Source: Sulfurirhabdus autotrophica (GTDB lineage: Bacteria > Pseudomonadota > Gammaproteobacteria > Burkholderiales > SMCO01). Taken from it: a DNA stretch of 64,000 bases. The stretch spans positions 124,001 through 188,000 of the forward strand of contig NZ_SMCO01000001.1 in the NCBI RefSeq assembly GCF_004346685.1, written 5' to 3'. The notes under the pieces are model-generated. The model did not search any database. It was not told the DNA's origin and saw nothing but the letters and a program-made list of their open reading frames with translations. This document shows, one piece after another, positions 31,745-44,535 of the stretch. Position 1 is the stretch's first letter; each line of letters starts with the position of its first letter. A program made the translations under genes and the position numbers.

Positions 31745-32923
31745 ATGGTGCAAGATGACGTTAAGGGGAAAGTTACCCGCGACAGGCTACGTGTTGGTAT
31801 TGTTGCAGGTGAAGCGTCCGGTGATTTGCTGGGAGCGCATCTGATTCGAGCGCTCAAGGAAAAGCTGCCTGACATCGAATTTGTTGGTATAGCGGGTCCA
31901 AAAATGATTTCTGCTGGCGCTATTTCTTTATTTCATATGGAAAAACTGGCAGTCAACGGATTTACCGAAGTGATCCGTCATTATCGAGAAATTTTGGGAA
32001 TCCGCCGTAAACTGACTGAAATTTTTCTGAGTGACCCACCCAATGTATTTATTGGTATTGATGCCCCTGATTTCAATCTGGAACTGGAATCACAGCTAAA
32101 AGCCAAGGGGATTCCTGCGATTCATTATGTAAGTCCTTCTATCTGGGCTTGGCGTGGTGAGCGGATTCGTAAAATTGCACAGGCAGTTTCCCGTATTTTG
32201 GTGTTATTTCCCTTTGAAAAGCCTATTTACGAAAAAGCAGGTATTCCTGTTACTTATGTAGGCCATCCATTGGGAGATATGTTACCAATGGAACCTAATA
32301 GACAATTGGCACGTGAACAGTTAAAACTGTCACAATCCGAAGTCATTATTGCCATGCTGCCCGGGAGCAGGCAAAGAGAACTGCATTCTCTTGCGGAACT
32401 TTATGTGAAAACGGCAAGGGAGGTTATCCAATCTTGTCCCGCCGCCCGTTTTCTTGTTCCTTTAGTTAGCAGAGAAACCCGCAAGATATTTGAGAAAGCC
32501 ATATACAGCGCGGGTGGCGAAGATTTGCCGATAACAATTTTGTTTGGCCATGCCTATGACGCAATTACTGCCGCTAACGTTGTCCTGGTGGCTTCTGGTA
32601 CAGCAACCCTGGAAACTGCATTGCTTAAACGCCCTATGGTGATAACCTACAGGGTATCCAAATTAACCTGGAAACTTGCAAAGCGAAGAGCTTATCTTCC
32701 TTATGTTGGGTTGCCTAATGTTCTTGCAGGGCGTTTTATTGTGCCAGAGCTGCTACAAGAAAATGCGACGCCTGAAAATCTGTCCCAAGCCTTACTGAAT
32801 ATTTTGAATGATCAAACGCTGGAAAAAGAATTGATCAATCGTTTTACAGATATGCATGTTGCTCTGCGCCAGAATACTGGAGAGAAGGTTGCCGCTGCGT
32901 TATTACCCTATTTGACCCGATGA
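31745..32923 (+). CDS. lpxB: Lipid-A-disaccharide synthase
   Basis: 392 residues. A GT19 glycosyltransferase that joins UDP-diacyl-GlcN and lipid X. Signatures: [66 protein letters not shown], and [22 protein letters not shown]. The start is preceded by GGAGAGG. It overlaps rnhB by four bases. Confidence 0.98.
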
Positions 32924-33531
32924 AACAGATTGTAAAGATTCACAATAACATCCTCATCTGTGGCGTGGATGAAGCGGGCAGGGGTCCATTGGCAGGGCCC
33001 GTTTATGCGGCAGCTGTTATTCTGAATCCAGAACGGCCTATAATCGGGTTGGCAGATTCGAAAAAACTGAGCGAAAAAAAACGGGATAAATTGGCGCTTG
33101 AAATAAGGGAGTTTTCATTGGCGTGGGCTGTAGCGCGTGCTGAAGTTGAAGAGATCGATCGTATTAACATCTTGCAAGCCAGTTTGCTTGCCATGCAGCG
33201 TGCGGTAAATCAGCTTAAACTAATACCAACAGAAGTGTTGGTGGATGGAAATCAATGTCCCAAGTTAACTATGTCCACGAAGGCAATTGTTAAAGGGGAC
33301 AGTTCAGTACCAGAAATTTCCGCTGCGTCCATTTTGGCTAAAACAGCCAGAGATGCAGAAATGCTGTCGTTACATTTACTATATCCGCAATATGGGTTTG
33401 ATCGACATAAAGGTTATCCTACTGCGGATCATGTACGAGCACTGAAAGAATTTGGCGTGACGTCAATACACCGGATGAGTTTTTCACCAGTAAAAAATAT
33501 TATTAGAGAAAAAGAAACGAAAATTAGTTAG
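32920..33531 (+). CDS. rnhB: Ribonuclease HII
   Basis: 203 residues. Cleaves RNA in RNA-DNA hybrids, including single ribonucleotides. Catalytic acidic residues are in [23 protein letters not shown] and [22 protein letters not shown] near the C-terminus is typical. It ends the super-cluster and overlaps lpxB at its start. Confidence 0.97.
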
Positions 33532-34162: not shown

Positions 34163-35023
34163 ATGTTTGTAATTATTGGTTGGGTTATTGTTATAGGCTC
34201 AGTATTTGGCGGTTTTGCGATGGCCGGGGGGCACCTGGCTGTTTTATTTCAGCCACTGGAGCTTTTAATGATTGGCGGTGCTGCCGCTGGTGCTTTTTTG
34301 GTGGGTAATACCCTTACTGTTGTAAAAAGCACTATCAAGACGCTTCCTACCGTATTCAAGGCAGGAAAGTTCAATAAAGTCATGTATATGGACTTACTGG
34401 CCCTCCTGTTTGAAATTCTGGCAAAAGTCCGCAAAGAAGGTTTGATGTCCATTGAGAGGGACGTTGAAAGTCCCCATGAGAGTCCTGTTTTTTCCAAATA
34501 CCCTAATATTAGCTCAGACCATCACCTTATTGAATTCATTACGGATTATTTGCGATTGATGGTGGGGGGAAACCTGAATGCCTTTGAAATTGAAAATTTG
34601 ATGGATCAGGAAATGGAAACTCACCACAAGGAAGCAGAAGCGGCTATCGGCGCAGTTGCCAAGTTGGGTGATGGTTTGCCGGCATTTGGTATTGTGGCAG
34701 CGGTTATGGGAGTGGTTCATACAATGGAGTCGGTGGGAATTCCGCCAGCAGAATTAGGTATTTTGATTGCACATGCTCTCGTAGGTACCTTTCTGGGTAT
34801 TTTGCTCGCTTATGGCTTTGTTGGCCCACTTGCTTCAACACTTGAACAAAAAATGCATGAATCGTCCAAGCCTTTTGAATGTATCAAAGTAACCTTGCTG
34901 GCCAGCTTGAATGGTTATGCTCCACAGGTTGCGATTGAATTCGGGCGTAAAGTTTTGTACTCCACAGACAGGCCTACCTTCAGTGAGTTGGAAGAAGACG
35001 TGAAATCGCGTAAAGGTAAATAA
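34163..35023 (+). CDS. motA: Flagellar motor stator protein MotA
   Basis: 286 residues, E. coli-like proton-type length. Four membrane helices; with MotB it forms the ion channel that drives flagellar rotation. The C-terminal part carries the conserved GDGLPAFGIVAAVMGVVHTMESVG and IAHALVGTFLGILLAYGFVGPLA helices. The cytoplasmic loop contains the charged region that contacts FliG. Separated by 51 bp from motB. Confidence 0.97.
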   Translation: MFVIIGWVIVIGSVFGGFAMAGGHLAVLFQPLELLMIGGAAAGAFLVGNTLTVVKSTIKTLPTVFKAGKFNKVMYMDLLALLFEILAKVRKEGLMSIERDVESPHESPVFSKYPNISSDHHLIEFITDYLRLMVGGNLNAFEIENLMDQEMETHHKEAEAAIGAVAKLGDGLPAFGIVAAVMGVVHTMESVGIPPAELGILIAHALVGTFLGILLAYGFVGPLASTLEQKMHESSKPFECIKVTLLASLNGYAPQVAIEFGRKVLYSTDRPTFSELEEDVKSRKGK

Positions 35024-35074
35024 CTACTATGTTTGTTATGAAATATAGCAGCCTAAATACTCAGGATATCCAGG

Positions 35075-36058
35075 ATGAGTGATACATCCCAGCGGCCAAT
35101 TATTGTAAAAAAAATCAAGAAGAGCGCTCATGGCCACCACGGTGGTGCCTGGAAAATCGCTTATGCTGATTTTGTGACGGCGATGATGGCTTTCTTTTTG
35201 CTTATGTGGTTATTGGGCTCGACAGCAAAAGGTGACTTGAGTGGTATCGCTGAGTATTTTAAAACGCCTTTGAAAGTTGCACTTGCTGGAGGTTCTGGTA
35301 GCGGTGATAGCTCAAGCGTTATAAAAGGTGGTGGGCAGGATCTGACACGCAGGGCTGGCCAGGTTAAAAAAGGCGAAGTACCCCAGCAAAAAAGATTGAT
35401 CAACCTGGAAGCTGCGAAGCATGAGTTTGAGCGGATGGAAGCGGCTAAACTGGAAGGCTTGAAAAGTAAGCTGAAAGCAGCGATTGCAGCAAACCCTGGT
35501 TTGAGTAAATATAAGGACCAACTGCTGATTGATATTACCAGCGAAGGTTTGCGTATCCAGATTGTTGACGAAAAAAATCGGCCGATGTTTGATAGTGGGC
35601 ATGCAGCCCTGAAGCCATATACACGTGATATTTTGCATGAAATTGGAAAAATTCTGAATGAAGTGCCTAATCGAGTCAGTCTTTCTGGGCATACTGATGC
35701 TACGGTTTATGCAGGAGGGGAAGCGGGCTATAGCAACTGGGAGCTTTCTACCGAAAGGGCCAATGCTTCCCGAAGGGAGTTGATTGTTGGCGGTATGAAT
35801 GAAAATAAAATGTTGCGTGTGGTGGGGCTGGCATCAGCAGTATTATTTGATAAAGAAAACCCGGAAAATCCTATTAACAGGCGAATAAGTATCATCGTCT
35901 TGAACAAGAAAACAGAAGAAGAATTTGCTAAAGAAAGCGGTCCCGTCCAAGAGGTGAAGCCGGCAGAAGAGTCAAGTGAGGGAAGCGATCCTGTGCAGGA
36001 GATCAAAACCAAACCAGTTACTGAAGGGGCGCTGAGTGGAAGTCAGCCCAAGCACTAG
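35075..36058 (+). CDS. motB: Flagellar motor stator protein MotB
   Basis: 327 residues. Single N-terminal membrane helix with the proton-carrying Asp in WKIAYADFVTAMMAFFLLMWLLGS. A plug/linker region follows, then a periplasmic OmpA-like peptidoglycan-binding domain (about 170-280, VSLSGHTDATVYAGGEAGYSNWELSTERANASRRELI). The C-terminal tail is Glu/Ser/Pro-rich. It anchors the stator to the wall. Confidence 0.97.
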   Translation: MSDTSQRPIIVKKIKKSAHGHHGGAWKIAYADFVTAMMAFFLLMWLLGSTAKGDLSGIAEYFKTPLKVALAGGSGSGDSSSVIKGGGQDLTRRAGQVKKGEVPQQKRLINLEAAKHEFERMEAAKLEGLKSKLKAAIAANPGLSKYKDQLLIDITSEGLRIQIVDEKNRPMFDSGHAALKPYTRDILHEIGKILNEVPNRVSLSGHTDATVYAGGEAGYSNWELSTERANASRRELIVGGMNENKMLRVVGLASAVLFDKENPENPINRRISIIVLNKKTEEEFAKESGPVQEVKPAEESSEGSDPVQEIKTKPVTEGALSGSQPKH

Positions 36059-36857
36059 CAAATTTGAATCTAACGTTACTATGCTTTTAATAGCGCGCAT
36101 TCGTAAATTGCCACCTGCAATTCTTGCATTATTTATACAACTAATTGCTTTCTGTAGTTTGTTTCTGGTTATACCTGTTTTCCATCAAGTTGTTGCAGTA
36201 GATTTCTCACCCATGCAACTGGCAGTCATTCAAGGGGTGCTAGCCGTTGCATTCAGTCTGGCTATTCGATTTGCAACCTGGTGGTACGTTATTCAATTCC
36301 TGTTTGCTCCAACATTAATTAGTGCACAGTATCTGCATATTCCTTCTGGCTGGTTCCTGCTGGCATTTTTGTCGCTGGCAATGATTTACTGGAACACTTT
36401 CAGAACTCAAGTGCCACTTTATCTTTCCAGTCGCAAAGCATGGGTGGCGATCAGCGAATTGTTGCCGGCAGAACCCGGTTTCTCTTTTATAGATCTGGGC
36501 TCGGGACTAGGCGGGTTACTGGCGTACCTGAGTAAGGTAAGGCCTGGTGGAAAATATCATGGTATTGAGTCTGCTCCTTTGCCATTTATCTTTAGCTGGT
36601 TGAAAGCGAATTATAAGGGAAGCGCCTTCCAAGTTGCCTGGGGTGATTTCTGGAAGCTTGATTTTGCTAATTATGATGTGGTTTATGCCTATCTATCACC
36701 TGTCCCTATGGTGGAATTGTGGCAAAAGGCACGCTCTGAAATGCGCCCAGGTTCACTTTTTATCAGTAATACTTTTGTTGTTCCGGGGGTTAATCCAACT
36801 CAAGTTGTGCCATTGAATGATTTAAATGACTCAACGCTTTATATTTGGAAAATGTGA
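36036..36857 (+). CDS. Membrane-linked class I SAM methyltransferase, FAM173-like
   Basis: 273 residues. An N-terminal block of three or four hydrophobic helices (about 27-120) precedes a Rossmann methyltransferase: FIDLGSGLGGLLAYLSKV (SAM motif I), YHGIESAPLPFIFSWLK, then WGDFWKLDFANYDVVYAYLSPVPM. This last segment recalls the FAM173/ATPSCKMT lysine methyltransferases that modify membrane protein subunits (resemblance by eye only). The GTG start has GGGG six bases upstream and overlaps the motB end by 23 bases. The stop overlaps the next start (GTGA). The substrate is unknown. Confidence 0.72.
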   Translation: MEVSPSTSKFESNVTMLLIARIRKLPPAILALFIQLIAFCSLFLVIPVFHQVVAVDFSPMQLAVIQGVLAVAFSLAIRFATWWYVIQFLFAPTLISAQYLHIPSGWFLLAFLSLAMIYWNTFRTQVPLYLSSRKAWVAISELLPAEPGFSFIDLGSGLGGLLAYLSKVRPGGKYHGIESAPLPFIFSWLKANYKGSAFQVAWGDFWKLDFANYDVVYAYLSPVPMVELWQKARSEMRPGSLFISNTFVVPGVNPTQVVPLNDLNDSTLYIWKM

Positions 36858-38329
36858 AAATCTCCATGGAAAAGAGCATCGATAACTGGGTTGATGAGTT
36901 CAGGAACAAAGAGATTCCGGTGTTAAGGAAAACTGCAAAGGAATTTCAACGCATGTCTTCCAACACCAGAGATTTAACCCCCTCACGTATTGCAGCTGTG
37001 GTGTATCGAGACCCGTTAATGACACTCAGGATTTTAAGGTTTATTAACGGGATGCACCGTGGCCGGCTGGCAGGGGAAGTGACAACGATTGAGCATGCCA
37101 TCATGATGCTTGGTATAGACCCATTTTTTAAGCAGTTCAGTCAGTTGACTTTTATTGATGACCATCTTGGGTACAGTCGTTATGCTTTTGTTGGGTTGAT
37201 GCGTGTTATTAGCCGTGCTCACCATGCGGCTTATCAGGCATGGGACTGGGCGGTTTTGCGTAACGATGTGAAGGCTGAAGAAGTTTATACCGGAACATTG
37301 GTTCAGTCTCTTGGTGAGCAAATGTTCTGGTGTTTTGCACCTGAAGTGCATCTGGATATTGTAAAGTCCATGCGACAAGATAAATTGCCGTTTATAGAAA
37401 CGCAAAAAGCGCTGCTGGGTTTTGAATTTTCACAATTTCAGATGGCTCTCGCTAGAGCGTGGAATTTGCCGGAGTTATATATCGATTTCATGGACCCGGA
37501 GAATAGTGAACGACCACGAGTGATTGATATTCGACTCGCCGATTCCATTGCCAGACGTTCAGACAGAGGGTGGTATCAGGAGGCCTTGTGGCAAGACATG
37601 AAGGATGTTGCCCTCTTGTTGCGAATGGAAGAAGAACCCATTATTGCCAGAATTCATCAGAATGCCATTATTGCTGCAAGACAATGGGAGTTGTATGGTG
37701 TAACGCCTGCCGCTGCCTGGTTACCTTTGCTGCCAGGAACATGGCCGGAAGATGAAATTCCGGATGAGATCGTGCCTACTGCTATTGAATCTGATGAGGA
37801 AGCGCTATGCTTTATGCCGCAGCCTGCAGTGATGAAGCATGTCATGCAGGAAATTGGTTCGCATCTCGATGGAACCTTTAATTTGCAGCAACTCATGGCA
37901 TTGGTTTTGAAGGGTATGCATGATGGCATTGGATTAAATCGGGTTGTTTTTGCGCTGATGACTCCGGATCGAAAAAGTGTTAAGGCTAAATTTGTGTTGG
38001 GTGCAGAAGCCAATTCTCCTTTACGTCAGTTTGAATATTCGTTAAGTACGCCCCATTTATTTACTCGTTTGATGAGCAAACAGCAAGGCCTATGGTTTAA
38101 TGCTTCAAACAAGGAAAAGTTTGCCCCGCTATTACCAGCAGAAATAATAAAAATAATAGGAGAGGGAGAATTTTTTGCAATGGCTGTGCATATTCATGAT
38201 AAGCCAGTAGGGATGTTTTATGCTGACAGAAAACATGGTGATTGCGAATTAGATGCGCATAGTTATGAAGAATTTAAGGCACTTTGTTTGCGTGCCTCTG
38301 AAGGTTTAGCTCACCTCGCTAAGAAATAG
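36854..38329 (+). CDS. HDOD domain protein with C-terminal GAF-like region
   Basis: 491 residues. The HDOD domain at about 20-230 (SSNTRDLTPSRIAAVVYRDPLMTLRILRFIN, TTIEHAIMMLGIDPFF, VQSLGEQMFWCF) lacks the catalytic HD pair, as is normal for HDOD signalling proteins. The C-terminal part (about 330-490) resembles GAF (LMALVLKGMHDGIGLNRVVFALMTPDR). HDOD proteins tie second-messenger or stress signals to motility; the motAB neighbourhood fits this, but the role is inferred. GTG 36854 overlaps the upstream stop; ATG 36866 is the alternative. The 3' ends overlap the convergent senB. Confidence 0.78.
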   Translation: MKISMEKSIDNWVDEFRNKEIPVLRKTAKEFQRMSSNTRDLTPSRIAAVVYRDPLMTLRILRFINGMHRGRLAGEVTTIEHAIMMLGIDPFFKQFSQLTFIDDHLGYSRYAFVGLMRVISRAHHAAYQAWDWAVLRNDVKAEEVYTGTLVQSLGEQMFWCFAPEVHLDIVKSMRQDKLPFIETQKALLGFEFSQFQMALARAWNLPELYIDFMDPENSERPRVIDIRLADSIARRSDRGWYQEALWQDMKDVALLLRMEEEPIIARIHQNAIIAARQWELYGVTPAAAWLPLLPGTWPEDEIPDEIVPTAIESDEEALCFMPQPAVMKHVMQEIGSHLDGTFNLQQLMALVLKGMHDGIGLNRVVFALMTPDRKSVKAKFVLGAEANSPLRQFEYSLSTPHLFTRLMSKQQGLWFNASNKEKFAPLLPAEIIKIIGEGEFFAMAVHIHDKPVGMFYADRKHGDCELDAHSYEEFKALCLRASEGLAHLAKK

Positions 38330-39278
38330 GCTCACTGATCCGTTTAACCAGATTTAGTAATTCGATTTTTTCTTTTTCTGGTTGAACATAGTGCTTGCGT
38401 TGAGCGCATTGGGTTTTTAAGAGGGAATAAAAAAGCGGGTCTGATTCTGCACGCCAAAGCAATTCGGCTAGCGCTTTTTCATTTCCACATGGAAAATACC
38501 CTGCATAATCCTCGCCTAGCATGCCGATATTACCCGATACCGCAGACGAAATAATCGGAATATCGCCCATCAGTGCTTCACAAATGACGTTTGCCCCTCC
38601 TTCCATTTTAGATGTGATCACCATCAAGTGTGAATGCGCGAGTTTACGGCGCACCTCACTATGAGGTATTTCACCTATCCAGGTATAACGGGAGCTGTAT
38701 TTCATAAGGTTTCTTGCTTCATCTGCCATGGTTTCTTCCATAGCTCGCCCAATATGCGTGATATGAATTTTGGATTGGGGAGGAAGCAGCAGTGTTGCCA
38801 AGGCACTACGAAAAGGATCTTTTTCATCTCGTAGATGACCTATAAGAGAAACTTCAAATCGTCTTTTCGGCGGTGTTTTCTTGATGAGTGGCATCGCTGA
38901 CTGGTACAGAACGTCGGTCTTGATACGGTAGATTTCTGTTAATTCCTGTCGCCCCATATCCTGTAACACCAGTAATCGTGTAGCGAGATTCATGGATTCC
39001 TGTGAGTTTGGATCCGTTTTTATGTCGCGGTATAAATCTGTACCGGTCAGTACGACAATGAGAGGTGAGTTTGGATATAGTGTTGAAAATTGCTTGATGG
39101 AATCATAACTTCGTCGCGCATGCAAAGCGATCATCATATCCGCTTTGTTTCTGTCCCAATGTTGCTGTATTTTTACTTGGTGACCACCTTCTCGAAGATA
39201 TCTGGCCCAGCGTTGTGCAGTGTTGTGGTTACCATTTTTAAAACGCGATGAGGTGGGTGTAATTATAATAATTTTCAT
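38319..39278 (-). CDS. senB: SenB-type selenosugar synthase (TIGR04348 glycosyltransferase family)
   Basis: 319 residues, GT-B fold. The pattern RWARYLREGGHQVKIQQHWDRNKADMMIALHARRSYDSI followed by LIVVLTGTDLYRDI and a C-terminal TSKMEGGANVICEALMGDIPIISSAVSGNIGMLG matches the TIGR04348 family. Members of this family are the SenB selenosugar synthases of selenoneine biosynthesis, which use selenophosphate and a UDP-sugar. The usual partners senA (EgtB-like) and senC/selD are not in this window, so the pathway is unproven here. If they are absent from the genome, another sugar-transfer role is possible. Confidence 0.75.
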   Translation of the reverse strand: MKIIIITPTSSRFKNGNHNTAQRWARYLREGGHQVKIQQHWDRNKADMMIALHARRSYDSIKQFSTLYPNSPLIVVLTGTDLYRDIKTDPNSQESMNLATRLLVLQDMGRQELTEIYRIKTDVLYQSAMPLIKKTPPKRRFEVSLIGHLRDEKDPFRSALATLLLPPQSKIHITHIGRAMEETMADEARNLMKYSSRYTWIGEIPHSEVRRKLAHSHLMVITSKMEGGANVICEALMGDIPIISSAVSGNIGMLGEDYAGYFPCGNEKALAELLWRAESDPLFYSLLKTQCAQRKHYVQPEKEKIELLNLVKRISEPIS

Positions 39279-39534
39279 ATTCAGCTAATCGCGATAGACT
39301 TCTTGAAACGATGCTAAGAAAAACTGGTTAAAATGATAAGCAAAGTGTGTCTGTGTTTGCTTTACAGTAATGCAGCAAAACTGTTTGAGCGGATCATAAA
39401 CAATTAAAGTTTGTGTCGAAGTTAGTTCATTTTACCAATAAATATGCTTTGAATAATGCTTTCCATAAGTTTTAACCTGATTTGAGATAAATATCGTCAT
39501 GTTTGCATCAGAAATTAATAGATAGGTTAACCTT

Positions 39535-40455
39535 TTGAGTATCCAGAAATTTTGGTTTATCAAACAAGGTGAGGCGATTAACGGGCCTTTCCCTGCGGGT
39601 GTCATTACTCAATATTTATTGTTGGGAAGAGTCACACCTACGTATATGGTGAGTCTGGATAAAATTACATGGTCACCTATTAGTGATTTTGACGAATTTC
39701 TGCCAGAAACATTGCCCGAGCAGTCTCCTGGAAATATTGTATTTCAGAAACCGCCTCATTGGCAGATTGAGCGGATAAGTGCTTCTCGCCGTTGGATTGA
39801 CGAGCGAACACGGGATCGGCGTTTAGAGGAGCTTCCAACATCCGAGGCCCCAAAAAGACGCAAGCGGATTGATCGCAGAATGATTGAAAGTAATGAGATA
39901 CGGGCACTGCGTAAACATTTCCTGTATCAATCCTTCAATCGCCCATTAAAATTATCCGATTTGCCACTTTTATCAATCTCACTCGGATTGATCGTATTTG
40001 CAATGTTGTTGTACTTCTATCCGGTTAATCCGGTAAAAGTAGATCTCGGACCTATTCAGGCTGATTGTCATCAAGCTGCGAAACCTCAGGTTAACTGGAA
40101 AGGGTGTGATATGCGAGGAATCTGGTTGCGAGGTGTGAATTTGTCCAGCTCCAATTTAAACCATACTAACTTGAATAGCGTAGAGCTTAGTAATAGTAAT
40201 TTATCTTACGTTAATTTAGCCAATGCAGATATTTCATATGGACGTTTGAACAATGCAGTACTGCTGGGGGCGAATTTAAAACAGGCTAATTTAAGCTATG
40301 CAGAGCTTCGTGGTGCAGATTTAAGCCAGGCGGATTTGAGGGGAGCAAAACTTGATGGTGTAGCCATTGTGGGTGCAAAACTAGATAATGCTGTCTGGCC
40401 AGATGGCTCGATATGTGCACCGGGTTCTATTGGGCACTGTATACCAAAAAATTAA
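39535..40455 (+). CDS. GYF_2 domain, membrane anchor and pentapeptide-repeat protein
   Basis: 306 residues. Residues about 3-50 (FWFIKQGEAINGPFPAGVITQYLLLGRVTPTYMVSLD) form a GYF_2-type domain. A charged Arg/Lys-rich segment (about 80-125) is followed by one membrane helix (about 147-163) and a run of A(D/N)LXX pentapeptide repeats (about 200-290). Pentapeptide repeats fold into a right-handed beta-helix. The topology suggests a cytoplasmic GYF domain and a periplasmic beta-helix. Function is unknown. TTG start with TAGGT upstream. Confidence 0.8.
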   Translation: MSIQKFWFIKQGEAINGPFPAGVITQYLLLGRVTPTYMVSLDKITWSPISDFDEFLPETLPEQSPGNIVFQKPPHWQIERISASRRWIDERTRDRRLEELPTSEAPKRRKRIDRRMIESNEIRALRKHFLYQSFNRPLKLSDLPLLSISLGLIVFAMLLYFYPVNPVKVDLGPIQADCHQAAKPQVNWKGCDMRGIWLRGVNLSSSNLNHTNLNSVELSNSNLSYVNLANADISYGRLNNAVLLGANLKQANLSYAELRGADLSQADLRGAKLDGVAIVGAKLDNAVWPDGSICAPGSIGHCIPKN

Positions 40456-40461
40456 CGTGAT

Positions 40462-41247
40462 ATGAAATTAATTACTTCTCGCGAAAACCCTTTATTTAAA
40501 TCGCTTAAAAAACTTGAATCGTCTGCAAAAGACAGGAAAGTTGAAGCAAAAACGTTGCTCGATGGTGAACACCTTATTGAAGCGTATCTTTCCAGTGGCG
40601 GCATTCCAGAGCTGTTTATTCTAAACGAAGCTGCCGCTAATGGAAGGGCATCAGTTGATTTATTGAAACGGTTGGAACCTGAACGTCTGATTGTCATGCC
40701 AGATGCGTTGTTAAGAGAACTTTCGCCGGTTAAAACGCCAACGGGCATGATTGCACTTATCGCTATTCCAGGTGCTAATGCTGAAACGTCTCAAGCAGAT
40801 TTTTGCGTGATGCTTGAAGATATTCAGGATCCCGGCAATCTCGGCACAATCCTGCGTTCGGCCGCTGGTGCAGGTGCACAACAGGTATATCTTTCCAGCA
40901 AATGCGCTGATGCCTGGTCACCCAAGGTTTTACGCGCGGGGATGGGGGCGCACTTTTGTCTGGTAATCAAGGAAAATGCTGAACTGATAAAAATCGCGGA
41001 TAAATTAATCGGTTCTATTATTGCTACCAGTCTGAATGCAAATAAAAGCCTTTTTGATTTGGATTTAACCGGTCCGGTCACTTTCTTAGTGGGTAATGAA
41101 GGTGCGGGTTTATCCGCTCAGTTGGAAGATGTCGCAACAGAAAAAGTGTCTATTCCCATGCCCGGAAAAATAGAGTCATTAAATGCTGCTTCTGCTGCTT
41201 CAATTTGCTTTTTTGAACGAGTCAGGCAAATTTCTACACGCTCTTAA
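40462..41247 (+). CDS. TrmH/SpoU-family RNA 2'-O-methyltransferase
   Basis: 261 residues. An N-terminal substrate-binding domain (ITSRENPLFKSLKKLESSAKDRKVEAKTLLDGEHLIEAYL) is followed by the SPOUT knot fold: LEDIQDPGNLGTILRSAAGAGAQQVYLS, LVGNEGAGLS, and IPMPGKIESLNAASAASICFFE. It methylates a ribose in rRNA or tRNA using SAM. The exact site (RlmB, TsnR or YsgA type) cannot be told. Confidence 0.88.
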   Translation: MKLITSRENPLFKSLKKLESSAKDRKVEAKTLLDGEHLIEAYLSSGGIPELFILNEAAANGRASVDLLKRLEPERLIVMPDALLRELSPVKTPTGMIALIAIPGANAETSQADFCVMLEDIQDPGNLGTILRSAAGAGAQQVYLSSKCADAWSPKVLRAGMGAHFCLVIKENAELIKIADKLIGSIIATSLNANKSLFDLDLTGPVTFLVGNEGAGLSAQLEDVATEKVSIPMPGKIESLNAASAASICFFERVRQISTRS

Positions 41248-41252
41248 TGTGC

Positions 41253-42083
41253 CTACGATGCTGGATGAGCTTGGTGTAAATGTGCTGCGTGTAGAATCGT
41301 TATGGAAATTTCCTCTACGGATTTGGTAGAGGTATCAAGGTAGGGAATAGCTTCAGAATGGAAAATGCTTTCTGCTTTGCGTATTTCAGCACGGCAGTTA
41401 TCCAGAGAAGCATACTGGCTGTCCGGTTTTCTTTCGCTGCGTATTTTGTGTAGCCTGTCAGGTGTTATGGAAAGACCGTACAATTTTTTCCGGAAGGGCT
41501 GTAATAATTTGGGTAAATGCCCATCGCTAAAGTCATCAGGGGTTAACGGGTAGTTTGCTGCACGAATCCCGTATTGCATCGCCAGATACAAACACGTAGG
41601 GGTTTTACCTGAACGTGAGACGCCAATCAGAATTATATCCGCCAATTCAAAGTTAGCTGTTGTAATACCATCATCATGATTTAAAGTGAAGTTGATTGCG
41701 TCAATCCGGTCGTTATAGGCATCATGATCACTGATGCCATGGGATAAGCCCAAAACATGAGAAGATTCTTCACCCAGCTCTTTTTCAAGTGGCCGTATAA
41801 ACATTTCAAACAAATCCAGTACCAGCCCATTACATGCTGTAATGACATTTCGAGTATTGGGGTTAATTAAGGTGCTAAAAACCAGTGGTCTGACACCTTG
41901 GTCTGAAAACGCCTGGTTGATTTCTATGCAAGCAGTTCGCGCCTTTTCAACAGTATCGATAAAGGGTAAAGTGGTTTTATTAAATGCCGCCCCTTGAAAC
42001 TGGCTAAGAAGCGTGCGGCCCAGCAGTTCAGCAGTAATGCCGGTACGGTCAGAAACATAAAAGACATTTCTTTTGATTGTCAT
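41253..42083 (-). CDS. ppsR: PEP synthase regulatory protein (kinase/pyrophosphorylase)
   Basis: 276 residues, DUF299 family. It inactivates PpsA by ADP-dependent phosphorylation of a Thr and reactivates it by Pi-dependent dephosphorylation. Signatures are [22 protein letters not shown] and the P-loop-like [29 protein letters not shown]. It is divergent from ppsA with about 76 bp between start codons, the common arrangement. Confidence 0.95.
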
Positions 42084-42159
42084 TCAAAGTACCTATAGTG
42101 ATATCAATATGAGTATGCTGGATGGCAAAACATGTTGCAAATTAGTTATGGAGTGTTCT

Positions 42160-44535
42160 GTGGAAAAAGATTATATAGCTTGGTTTGAAACATTATCGAT
42201 GAATGATGTTGGCACTGTTGGGGGTAAAAATGCCTCCCTGGGCGAAATGATTAATCAGCTTTCGCATGCTCAAGTTCGTGTTCCCGGTGGTTTCGCAACT
42301 ACTGCCAAAGCGTTTCGTGACTTTCTCACACATAATGGATTGACACAGCGAATTAATGCATCGCTTGAAACATTAGATATCAGCGATATAAAAAAGTTGG
42401 CAGAAACGGGGGCAAAAATTCGCCAGTGGATTGTAGAGGCGCCATTGCAACCAGATCTGGAAGCTTCAATAAAGGAAGCTTTTAATAAAATGCAGGCTGA
42501 GAGTAAAGGTGGGTTATCAGTTGCGGTACGTTCTTCAGCCACTGCAGAAGATTTGCCCGATGCCTCATTTGCTGGCCAGCAGGAAACCTACCTCAATATA
42601 AACGGTATAGAAAACGTGCTGTTAGCGGTCAGAAAGGTATTCGCCTCTTTGTATAACGATAGAGCGATTTCGTACCGCGTGCATAAAGGCTTTATTCATT
42701 CTGAAGTGGCGCTTTCTGCGGGCGTTCAGCGCATGGTGCGCAGTGATATTGGCGCCAGTGGCGTAATGTTTACTTTAGACACCGAATCCGGGTTTCAGGA
42801 TGTTGTTTTGATCACTGCTTCTTTCGGTTTGGGTGAAATGGTTGTTCAGGGTGCGGTAAATCCGGATGAATTTTACGTGCATAAGCCTATGCTGGAAGCG
42901 GGTAAACAGGCAGTCATTCAACGTACGCTTGGTTCAAAAGCCATCAAAATGATTTACTCTAATGACGCTTCAATTGAAGACCCTGTGAAGGTGGTCGATG
43001 TCTCCGAAGCAGAACGGAACCATTTCTGTCTGACAGATATAGATTTACTGGATCTAGCCCAACAGGCCGTTATTATTGAAAAACATTACGGTCGCCCTAT
43101 GGATATTGAATGGGCAAAAGATGGTATAGATGGAGGGCTTTATATTGTGCAAGCCCGCCCCGAAACAGTTACTACACAAGCCAACACCAAAACATTAACA
43201 CGATATCACCTCAAACAGCGTTCCACAGTGCTGATTGAGGGGCGAAGTATTGGGCAGAAAATTGGAAGCGGTAATGTGCGTATTGTGATGGGTACTGGCG
43301 AGATGGAGCGTGTGCAACCAGGTGATGTACTGGTAACGGATATGACAGATCCCGATTGGGAACCAGTCATGAAGCGGGCATCCGCTATTGTTACTAATCG
43401 AGGTGGGCGAACCTGTCATGCAGCCATTATTGCAAGAGAGCTTGGTATACCTGCAGTTGTTGGCTGCGGAAATGCTACGTCAGAGCTAAAAGATGGCGCT
43501 GAAGTGACTGTATCTTGTGCTGAAGGAGATACAGGGTACGTTTACGAAGGCATTCTGGAAAGTGAGATTATTAATTTATCTCTAGATTCTATGCCTAAGT
43601 CGCCAGTTAAAATCATGATGAATGTAGGTAATCCTGAACGCGCTTTTGATTTTCAAGCACTGCCAAATGAAGGCATCGGGTTGGCCCGCCTGGAGTTTAT
43701 CATTGCGAGAACAATTGGTATTCACCCCAAAGCGTTACTTCAATATCCGGATCTTTCAGAAGAATTACGTGAAACAGTGGAAAAACGAAGTGCTGGTTAC
43801 ACTAATCCAGTTAGTTTTTACGTTGATAAAATAGCCGAAGGGGTGGCCACTTTAGCTGCTGCTTTTTGGCCCAAGCCGGTCATTGTGAGGTTGTCAGATT
43901 TTAAGTCCAACGAGTATTCCAATCTCATTGGCGGTAATCTCTATGAACCCAAGGAAGAAAATCCCATGTTGGGGTTTCGAGGTGCTTCTCGCTACATATC
44001 AGATGATTTCCGCGGATGTTTTGAACTGGAATGCCGTGCTATGCTTCAGGTAAGGGAGGAAATGGGACTAACCAATTTACAGATTATGGTGCCATTTGTA
44101 CGTACTATCGACGAAATTAAACAAGTGATTGGATTACTCGAAGAATATGGATTGAAGCGTGGTGAGAACGGCCTGAAAGTGATTATGATGTGCGAAATAC
44201 CTTCTAATGTGATTTTGGCAGATGAATTTTTAAAGCATGTTGATGGATTTTCGATAGGTTCTAACGACCTTACACAGCTAACATTGGGAATAGACAGGGA
44301 TTCCGGGCTGGTTGCAGGGGGCTTTGATGAGCGCAATCCGGCAGTAAAAGCACTATTGCACCAGGCCATTCAAGCTTGTACCAAGGCAGGTAAATATATT
44401 GGTATTTGCGGTCAAGGGCCTTCTGATCACCCGGATTTAGCGCAATGGCTTGTCGAGGAAGGGATCGAAAGTATTTCTCTCAACCCTGATACGGTAGTGG
44501 AAACCTGGATGCTGCTTGCAGGTAAAAAAGTCTGA
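42160..44535 (+). CDS. ppsA: Phosphoenolpyruvate synthase
   Basis: 791 residues, equal to E. coli PpsA. Converts pyruvate, ATP and water to PEP, AMP and Pi for gluconeogenesis. ATP-grasp N-terminus ([41 protein letters not shown]), swivelling His domain ([17 protein letters not shown], with the Thr that PpsR targets next to the catalytic His), and a PEP-binding TIM barrel ([26 protein letters not shown]). The GTG at 42160 is chosen because GGAG lies six bases upstream and [10 protein letters not shown] matches the family start; longer in-frame starts at 42073 and 42148 are less likely. Confidence 0.96.

Follow-up and report, generated by a model that had tools for sequence, protein, structure and literature searches.

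The window analysed here, a stretch of 64,000 nucleotides from Sulfurirhabdus autotrophica, carried the gene order lpxB, rnhB, copD-like, motA, motB, methyltransferase-like, HDOD, senB, pentapeptide, trmH-like, ppsR and ppsA. The far end of this locus was marked by two landmark genes on the plus strand (31745..33531), which we take, from their sequences, to be lpxB and rnhB. Several genes were bystanders, including motA (34163-35023) and motB (35075-36058), together covering 34163..36058 of the plus strand, a membrane-linked SAM-methyltransferase-like protein (36036..36857, plus strand) assigned by eye, and an HDOD-domain protein (36845..38329, plus strand), which was convergent with senB with an overlap of 11 bp at the ends. 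Pfam was run on ten neighbours of senB in the window and gave no match for the methyltransferase-like protein, whose gene is conserved beside motA-motB in several families and was also present at loci of family f13 that retained senA. The selenosugar synthase gene senB (TIGR04348; 38319..39278, minus strand) was a single open frame of 319 aa in single copy. Behind it lay a divergent intergenic region of 256 bp (39279..39534), the slot that in other families holds senA, head to head with senB, and then a pentapeptide-repeat protein gene (39535..40455, plus strand), which faced senB directly and in family f13 directly followed senA. Three conserved landmarks completed the locus, a SpoU/TrmH-type RNA methyltransferase (40462..41247, plus strand), the PEP synthetase regulatory protein (kinase/pyrophosphorylase; 41253..42083, minus strand) and PEP synthase (42073..44535, plus strand). 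Neighbour genes in relatives were assigned by codon-position GC and by homologue order. An earlier sequence-only reading had put senB beside motility genes, which was literally true, with motA and motB near and two genes in between, but this carried no functional meaning in a conserved housekeeping region.

We infer that senB is transcribed alone, because its neighbours are divergent and convergent. The promoter scan of senB stayed at chance level (3 seen and 3.8 expected), and 3 terminator-like sites were counted where 1.1 were expected.

The 319-aa product matched TIGR04348 (SenB) with 419.1 bits (cut-off 300, E 9e-126) over positions 1-309 of the 310 of the model, while the runner-up family, GPMC GT4, reached 95 bits, its cut-off being 400. 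When the protein was compared with PDB by phmmer, the top four matches were the SenB chains 8k5u, 8jjq, 8fbx and 8jjn (E 4e-66 to 7e-64), and no close match was found besides SenB chains. The identification as SenB made in the sequence-only reading was thereby borne out, with the gene lying on the minus strand, and the two motifs it had quoted as TIGR04348-type signatures, ADMMIALHARRS and VVLTGTDLYRD, were both found in the translation of 38319-39278. In the genome, this copy alone exceeded the SenB cut-off, and nine further matches were partial GT4 of at most 42 bits.

In Variovorax paradoxus SenB (TIGR04348; 8jjq, 8fbx), mutagenesis has linked residues to the binding of selenophosphate and of the sugar donor and to Se-P cleavage, and N20, T23, H58, R61, T83, T85, Q131, R155, K158, E231 and E239 were needed (PMC10891094). 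The window protein belongs to the same family, is full-length and was identical at all 11 of these positions in the alignment, with the catalytic Lys K158 and the selenophosphate pocket N20, H58, R61, T83, T85 and R155 kept; the donor motif EGGAHV reads EGGANV in it, with E231 retained. Placement in another GT4 family lacking the SenB active-site residues thus found no support in the TIGR04348 match, the PDB match or the residue alignment. Unlike Variovorax SenB, which has V157 and H235, the window protein has E157 and N235, as does most of the family. Residue counts and the SenB tree were based on 117 of the 118 SenB copies, with the truncated G169 excluded, and column 157 was E in 115 of 117, while column 235 was N in 83 and H in 29. 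Variovorax SenB was therefore the exception at 157 and had the less common state at 235, and a changed specificity through V157E and H235N was rejected, both being the norm of the 117-copy set. From homology, the window gene would encode a working SenB Se-glycosyltransferase.

SenB is known as the middle step in the synthesis of selenoneine, an antioxidant; in this pathway SenA requires hercynine, and EgtD is the hercynine methyltransferase. In the window genome (G000), which was rated 100% complete and consisted of 59 contigs, only one selD was over the cut-off (436 bits, C1:697157), beside and divergent from mnmH, on the same contig as senB and about 0.53 Mb from it; MnmH also requires selenophosphate. 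The best match to the SenA model in this genome had 159 bits against a cut-off of 420 and was OvoA, and no TIGR03438 match for EgtD was found in it at 1e-10. The genome search proposed earlier for senA/EgtB-like genes and selD thus recovered selD but no SenA, and the observation that neither gene lies near senB held. Compared with the pathway SenA-SenB-SenC/SelD, the genome has SenB and SelD, with senB standing where other families carry senA|senB, but it lacks SenA and the hercynine maker EgtD, and the published pathway cannot run. Unlike Variovorax senB, the window gene has no SenA/EgtD partner, stands outside a sen cluster and is unlinked to selD. Because SenA and EgtD were absent from a genome rated complete, selenoneine is not expected via the published route (PMC9814287; PMC10702425), and the suggestion of a dispersed pathway found no support where selenoneine is concerned, even with selD elsewhere.

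The family of the window was represented by one genome in the collection, and a search for related loci with the single SenB protein returned one relative. Across the order, SenB was detected at E 1e-60 or better in 118 of 399 genomes, 115 of them over the cut-off. The DNA around all 118 senB genes was examined, and a first probe found no SenA-like ORF at 41 loci; SenA was then searched genome-wide in 80 SenB genomes, which were those 41 and 39 others. The 38 SenB genomes outside this search had an OvoA/SenA-like ORF at every senB locus, and none was counted as SenA-less. Among the 80, SenA was over the cut-off in 54, nine had matches of 336-419 bits (EgtB-like or truncated, and counted neither way), and 17 had nothing above 170 bits and no EgtB-like match genome-wide. 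These SenA-less genomes were G000 (the window), G042, G260, G087, G319, G200, G014, G272, G242, G181, G105, G382, G094, G049, G186, G068 and G017. With 229 bits, the SenB of G017 missed the family cut-off, which leaves 16 of the 17 as secure SenB members. G017 and G244 (L162/L163, family f18) carried divergent SenB relatives of 229 and 209 bits with nearly all active-site residues kept, and the G017 gene was flanked by a short-chain dehydrogenase gene on one side and by genes for thymidylate synthase and DHFR on the other.

EgtD, searched in 70 genomes, was found in none of the 17 SenA-less ones and in 52 of the 53 others (Fisher p 2e-15, relatedness ignored). A flaw of assembly does not account for the joint absence of SenA and EgtD, because two genes of one pathway are missing from the same genomes, three of which (G042, G181 and G068) are single-contig assemblies. 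That selenoneine is made after all, with a SenA missed or too divergent and hercynine from another source or import, could appeal to the 59 contigs of the assembly and to eight relatives in which senA lies away from senB (G212, G373, G166, G230, G346, G077, G054 and G247). Yet all eight have EgtD (with a single in-frame TAA in the G166 match), SenA as well as EgtD would need to have been overlooked in all 17 genomes, including the single-contig ones, and the empty slot holds no senA remnant; this explanation is hardly credible.

SelD and MnmH were present in all 29 SenB genomes checked, including all 17 SenA-less ones, and among the SenB-negative genomes of the order, the 80 with the lowest numbers were checked and 51 had SelD (p 0.002 against 17/17, relatedness ignored). 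This co-occurrence fits the need of SenB for selenophosphate weakly, because MnmH alone explains SelD. In three SenA-less genomes (G042, G260 and G068), selD directly adjoined senB on the same strand. The matched part of SelD contained a single in-frame TGA in L219 (G054), L221 (G386) and G103:C20:26738-27679, as expected if SelD is a selenoprotein. A sulfur reaction, by which SenB would convert thiophosphate into a thiosugar, has to be weighed here, since the selenium specificity of the studied SenB is not absolute, yet that enzyme disfavours thiophosphate 10-20-fold (PMC10702425). The unchanged selenophosphate-contacting residues and the SelD found in every one of the 29 genomes also speak against it, and it is very unlikely.

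The lpxB-rnhB...senB-trmH-ppsR-ppsA frame was found again in other families of the order. In families f46, f48, f36, f17, f27, f11 and f13, senA adjoins senB head to head, before trmH or the pentapeptide gene, and the slot is empty in the window, f15, f50 (g50), f33, f34, f6 (G054), part of f43 and f21 (G247); no senA remnant was detected in the 256-bp intergenic region 39279..39534. With at least two landmark genes as the criterion, 44 of 117 loci qualified, 25 with SenA adjoining SenB and 19 without (one of the 19 ends at a contig edge), and the qualifying loci fell in a 56-gene SenB clade with support 100/97. Where SenA adjoins SenB, the two genes stand head to head in all 31 cases within this clade and in 40 of 41 beyond it, which dates the senA|senB pair before both the clade and the empty slot. 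Loss of senA is the best reading of the empty slot, and gene order and the SenB tree mark the window locus as an old sen locus that no longer has senA.

Multiple independent losses of senA, to which a first AU test had pointed (25 rows against all 92, p 9.7e-7), were dropped as a claim, because that test was unfair in forcing other SenA-linked rows outside. The fair test, in which the 25 loci with SenA formed a single clade apart from 18 empty ones, gave p 0.061, and therefore no claim is made on the number of losses. Parsimony on 79 of the 80 searched genomes needed at least 9 changes of the SenA-less state. The genome G212 is the sister of two SenA-less ones; its senA adjoins egtD on another contig, and its SenA grouped outside the clade of the SenA genes of the locus itself in a quick tree (88 rows, left after one duplicate and four rows scoring at most 150 with phmmer were dropped). 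Thus SenA can apparently return while SenB stays put, as read from G212 in a weakly resolved tree. Three f43 genomes, L250, L251 and L253 (G373, G166 and G346), carried senA beside selD on a contig other than that of senB, which was still at the trmH locus. In G373, egtD was next to the senA-selD pair; G166:C18:5035-8185 held a second SelD-like gene with an EgtD match containing one in-frame TAA close by, possibly a decaying copy.

The dN/dS ratio was 0.18-0.27 in seven close SenA-less pairs (pairwise Nei-Gojobori, few pairs) and 0.11-0.34 in ten comparison pairs, one of which (G105/G212) pairs a SenA-less genome with one that has SenA; synonymous sites were saturated in two window pairs. The SenB proteins of the window and of f15 have diverged down to 58% identity. 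As estimated from these ratios, lone senB is under purifying selection of ordinary strength and is not drifting freely, and the constraint on SenA-less senB is perhaps a little weaker than that seen in some of the SenA-bearing pairs. The active site was kept in 17 of 17 SenA-less SenB proteins, save R61K in one. Whether senB is a leftover after the loss of senA, drifting or under weak selection only, can be judged against these results. The locus is plainly a reduced senA|senB locus and no partner is known, but the frame and active site are intact in all 17, the dN/dS values of the seven SenA-less pairs are well below 1, the gene has persisted through the divergence between window and f15, and of the eight SenA-less copies found outside the 56-gene clade, seven also exceed the family cut-off, making such a relic quite improbable. 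The stand-alone role suggested for SenB in the sequence-only reading gains indirect support from 17 SenA-less and EgtD-less genomes with an intact, constrained SenB; this support extends to the existence of a role, not to its nature.

The window genome also encodes OvoA, a full ovothiol synthase with a fused C-terminal methyltransferase (L013 730-2841; G000:C7:55936-56694 and flanks), assigned by TIGR04344 (693 bits) and TIGR04345 (350 bits), both over cut-off. FGE-domain proteins in this genome were OvoA and one PvdO-like protein, as found by TIGR and PDB searches. A second selenometabolite route, that of ovoselenol (OvsA, OvsM), reportedly described in a Nat Chem paper of 2024, is said to end in selenohistidine, and PDB molecule names indicate a 5-selenohistidine route through OvsA/OvsM. 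The selenosugar might therefore feed another C-Se bond-forming enzyme, here possibly OvoA, to give an ovoselenol-like or other selenometabolite, and OvoA-sized proteins (706-878 aa frames, 159-170 bits in the SenA search) occurred in six of the 17 SenA-less genomes. However, the window OvoA was closest in PDB to the sulfur OvoA 8khq (973 bits), with just 78 bits to OvsA chains, and the FGE-domain gene on contig C7 considered as an OvsA candidate was rejected as canonical OvoA by TIGR models and PDB match. Unlike the ovoselenol pathway, the window genome had as its only candidate this canonical OvoA with its own methyltransferase domain, and no OvsA-like protein was identified by these TIGR and PDB searches. 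An OvoA-sized match was missing from 11 of the 17, and an FGE-sulfatase-domain protein was absent altogether in three (G105, G382 and G094), so that this fate is unlikely.

No conserved operon partner for SenA-less senB was found among its neighbours, and copies elsewhere stood mostly amid housekeeping genes (Lnt, RlmH, MacA/MacB-like, RNase G, thymidylate synthase and DHFR). The end use of the selenosugar rests on elimination, because no partner enzyme, exporter or receptor was found in the neighbourhoods of SenA-less senB. In G186, which is SenA-less and EgtD-less, a TehB-like SAM methyltransferase (L082 8601-9197) lies on the strand of senB and stops some 14 bp short of it, the only such case among 118 loci, and it is possibly a selenosugar Se-methyltransferase. 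This pair is reminiscent of the methylated selenosugars of mammals, where the selenosugar 1beta-methylseleno-GalNAc is a selenium storage and excretion form and gives a precedent for a selenosugar that is no intermediate (PMC12936836). Unlike the mammalian case, the enzymes differ and there is no sign of Se-methylation in the window genome.

On balance, it is somewhat more probable than not that the window gene encodes a working selenosugar synthase, and that a selenosugar or a simple derivative of it is the selected product, outside selenoneine synthesis. In this proposal, senB would be the surviving half of the old head-to-head senA|senB pair, and SelD, shared with MnmH, would supply selenophosphate to SenB, which would join it with a UDP-sugar into a 1-seleno-sugar. 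This selenosugar could not be converted to selenoneine without SenA and EgtD, and because both are absent it must have another fate. The selenosugar itself or a simple derivative would then be the reason why senB stays under selection, and would most plausibly serve as a selenium store or buffer, as a detoxified or exportable form, or as a small-molecule antioxidant.

In the literature searched, which lay outside the founding Kayrouz papers (Nature 2022, Nat Chem 2024), no description of SenA-less SenB genomes was found. The introduction of PMC11929427 states that SenB reduces selenate to selenite, a statement at odds with the structural and biochemical papers.

The selenosugar may matter in its own right, as related bacteria share the pattern. 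A tentative wider proposal, which we hold at somewhat under even chances, is that bacteria use the selenosugar as a selenometabolite of its own, so that SelD and SenB alone would add one more trait of selenium utilisation to selenocysteine, selenouridine, the selenium cofactor, selenoneine and ovoselenol; selenoneine synthesis would then be an optional SenA-EgtD addition, which comes and goes while SenB stays. For a lone SenB gene, the annotation "selenoneine biosynthesis" is unwarranted. Genomes with SenB and SelD that have neither the user of the product nor the maker of the co-substrate predict selenosugars which accumulate or are otherwise used in bacteria.
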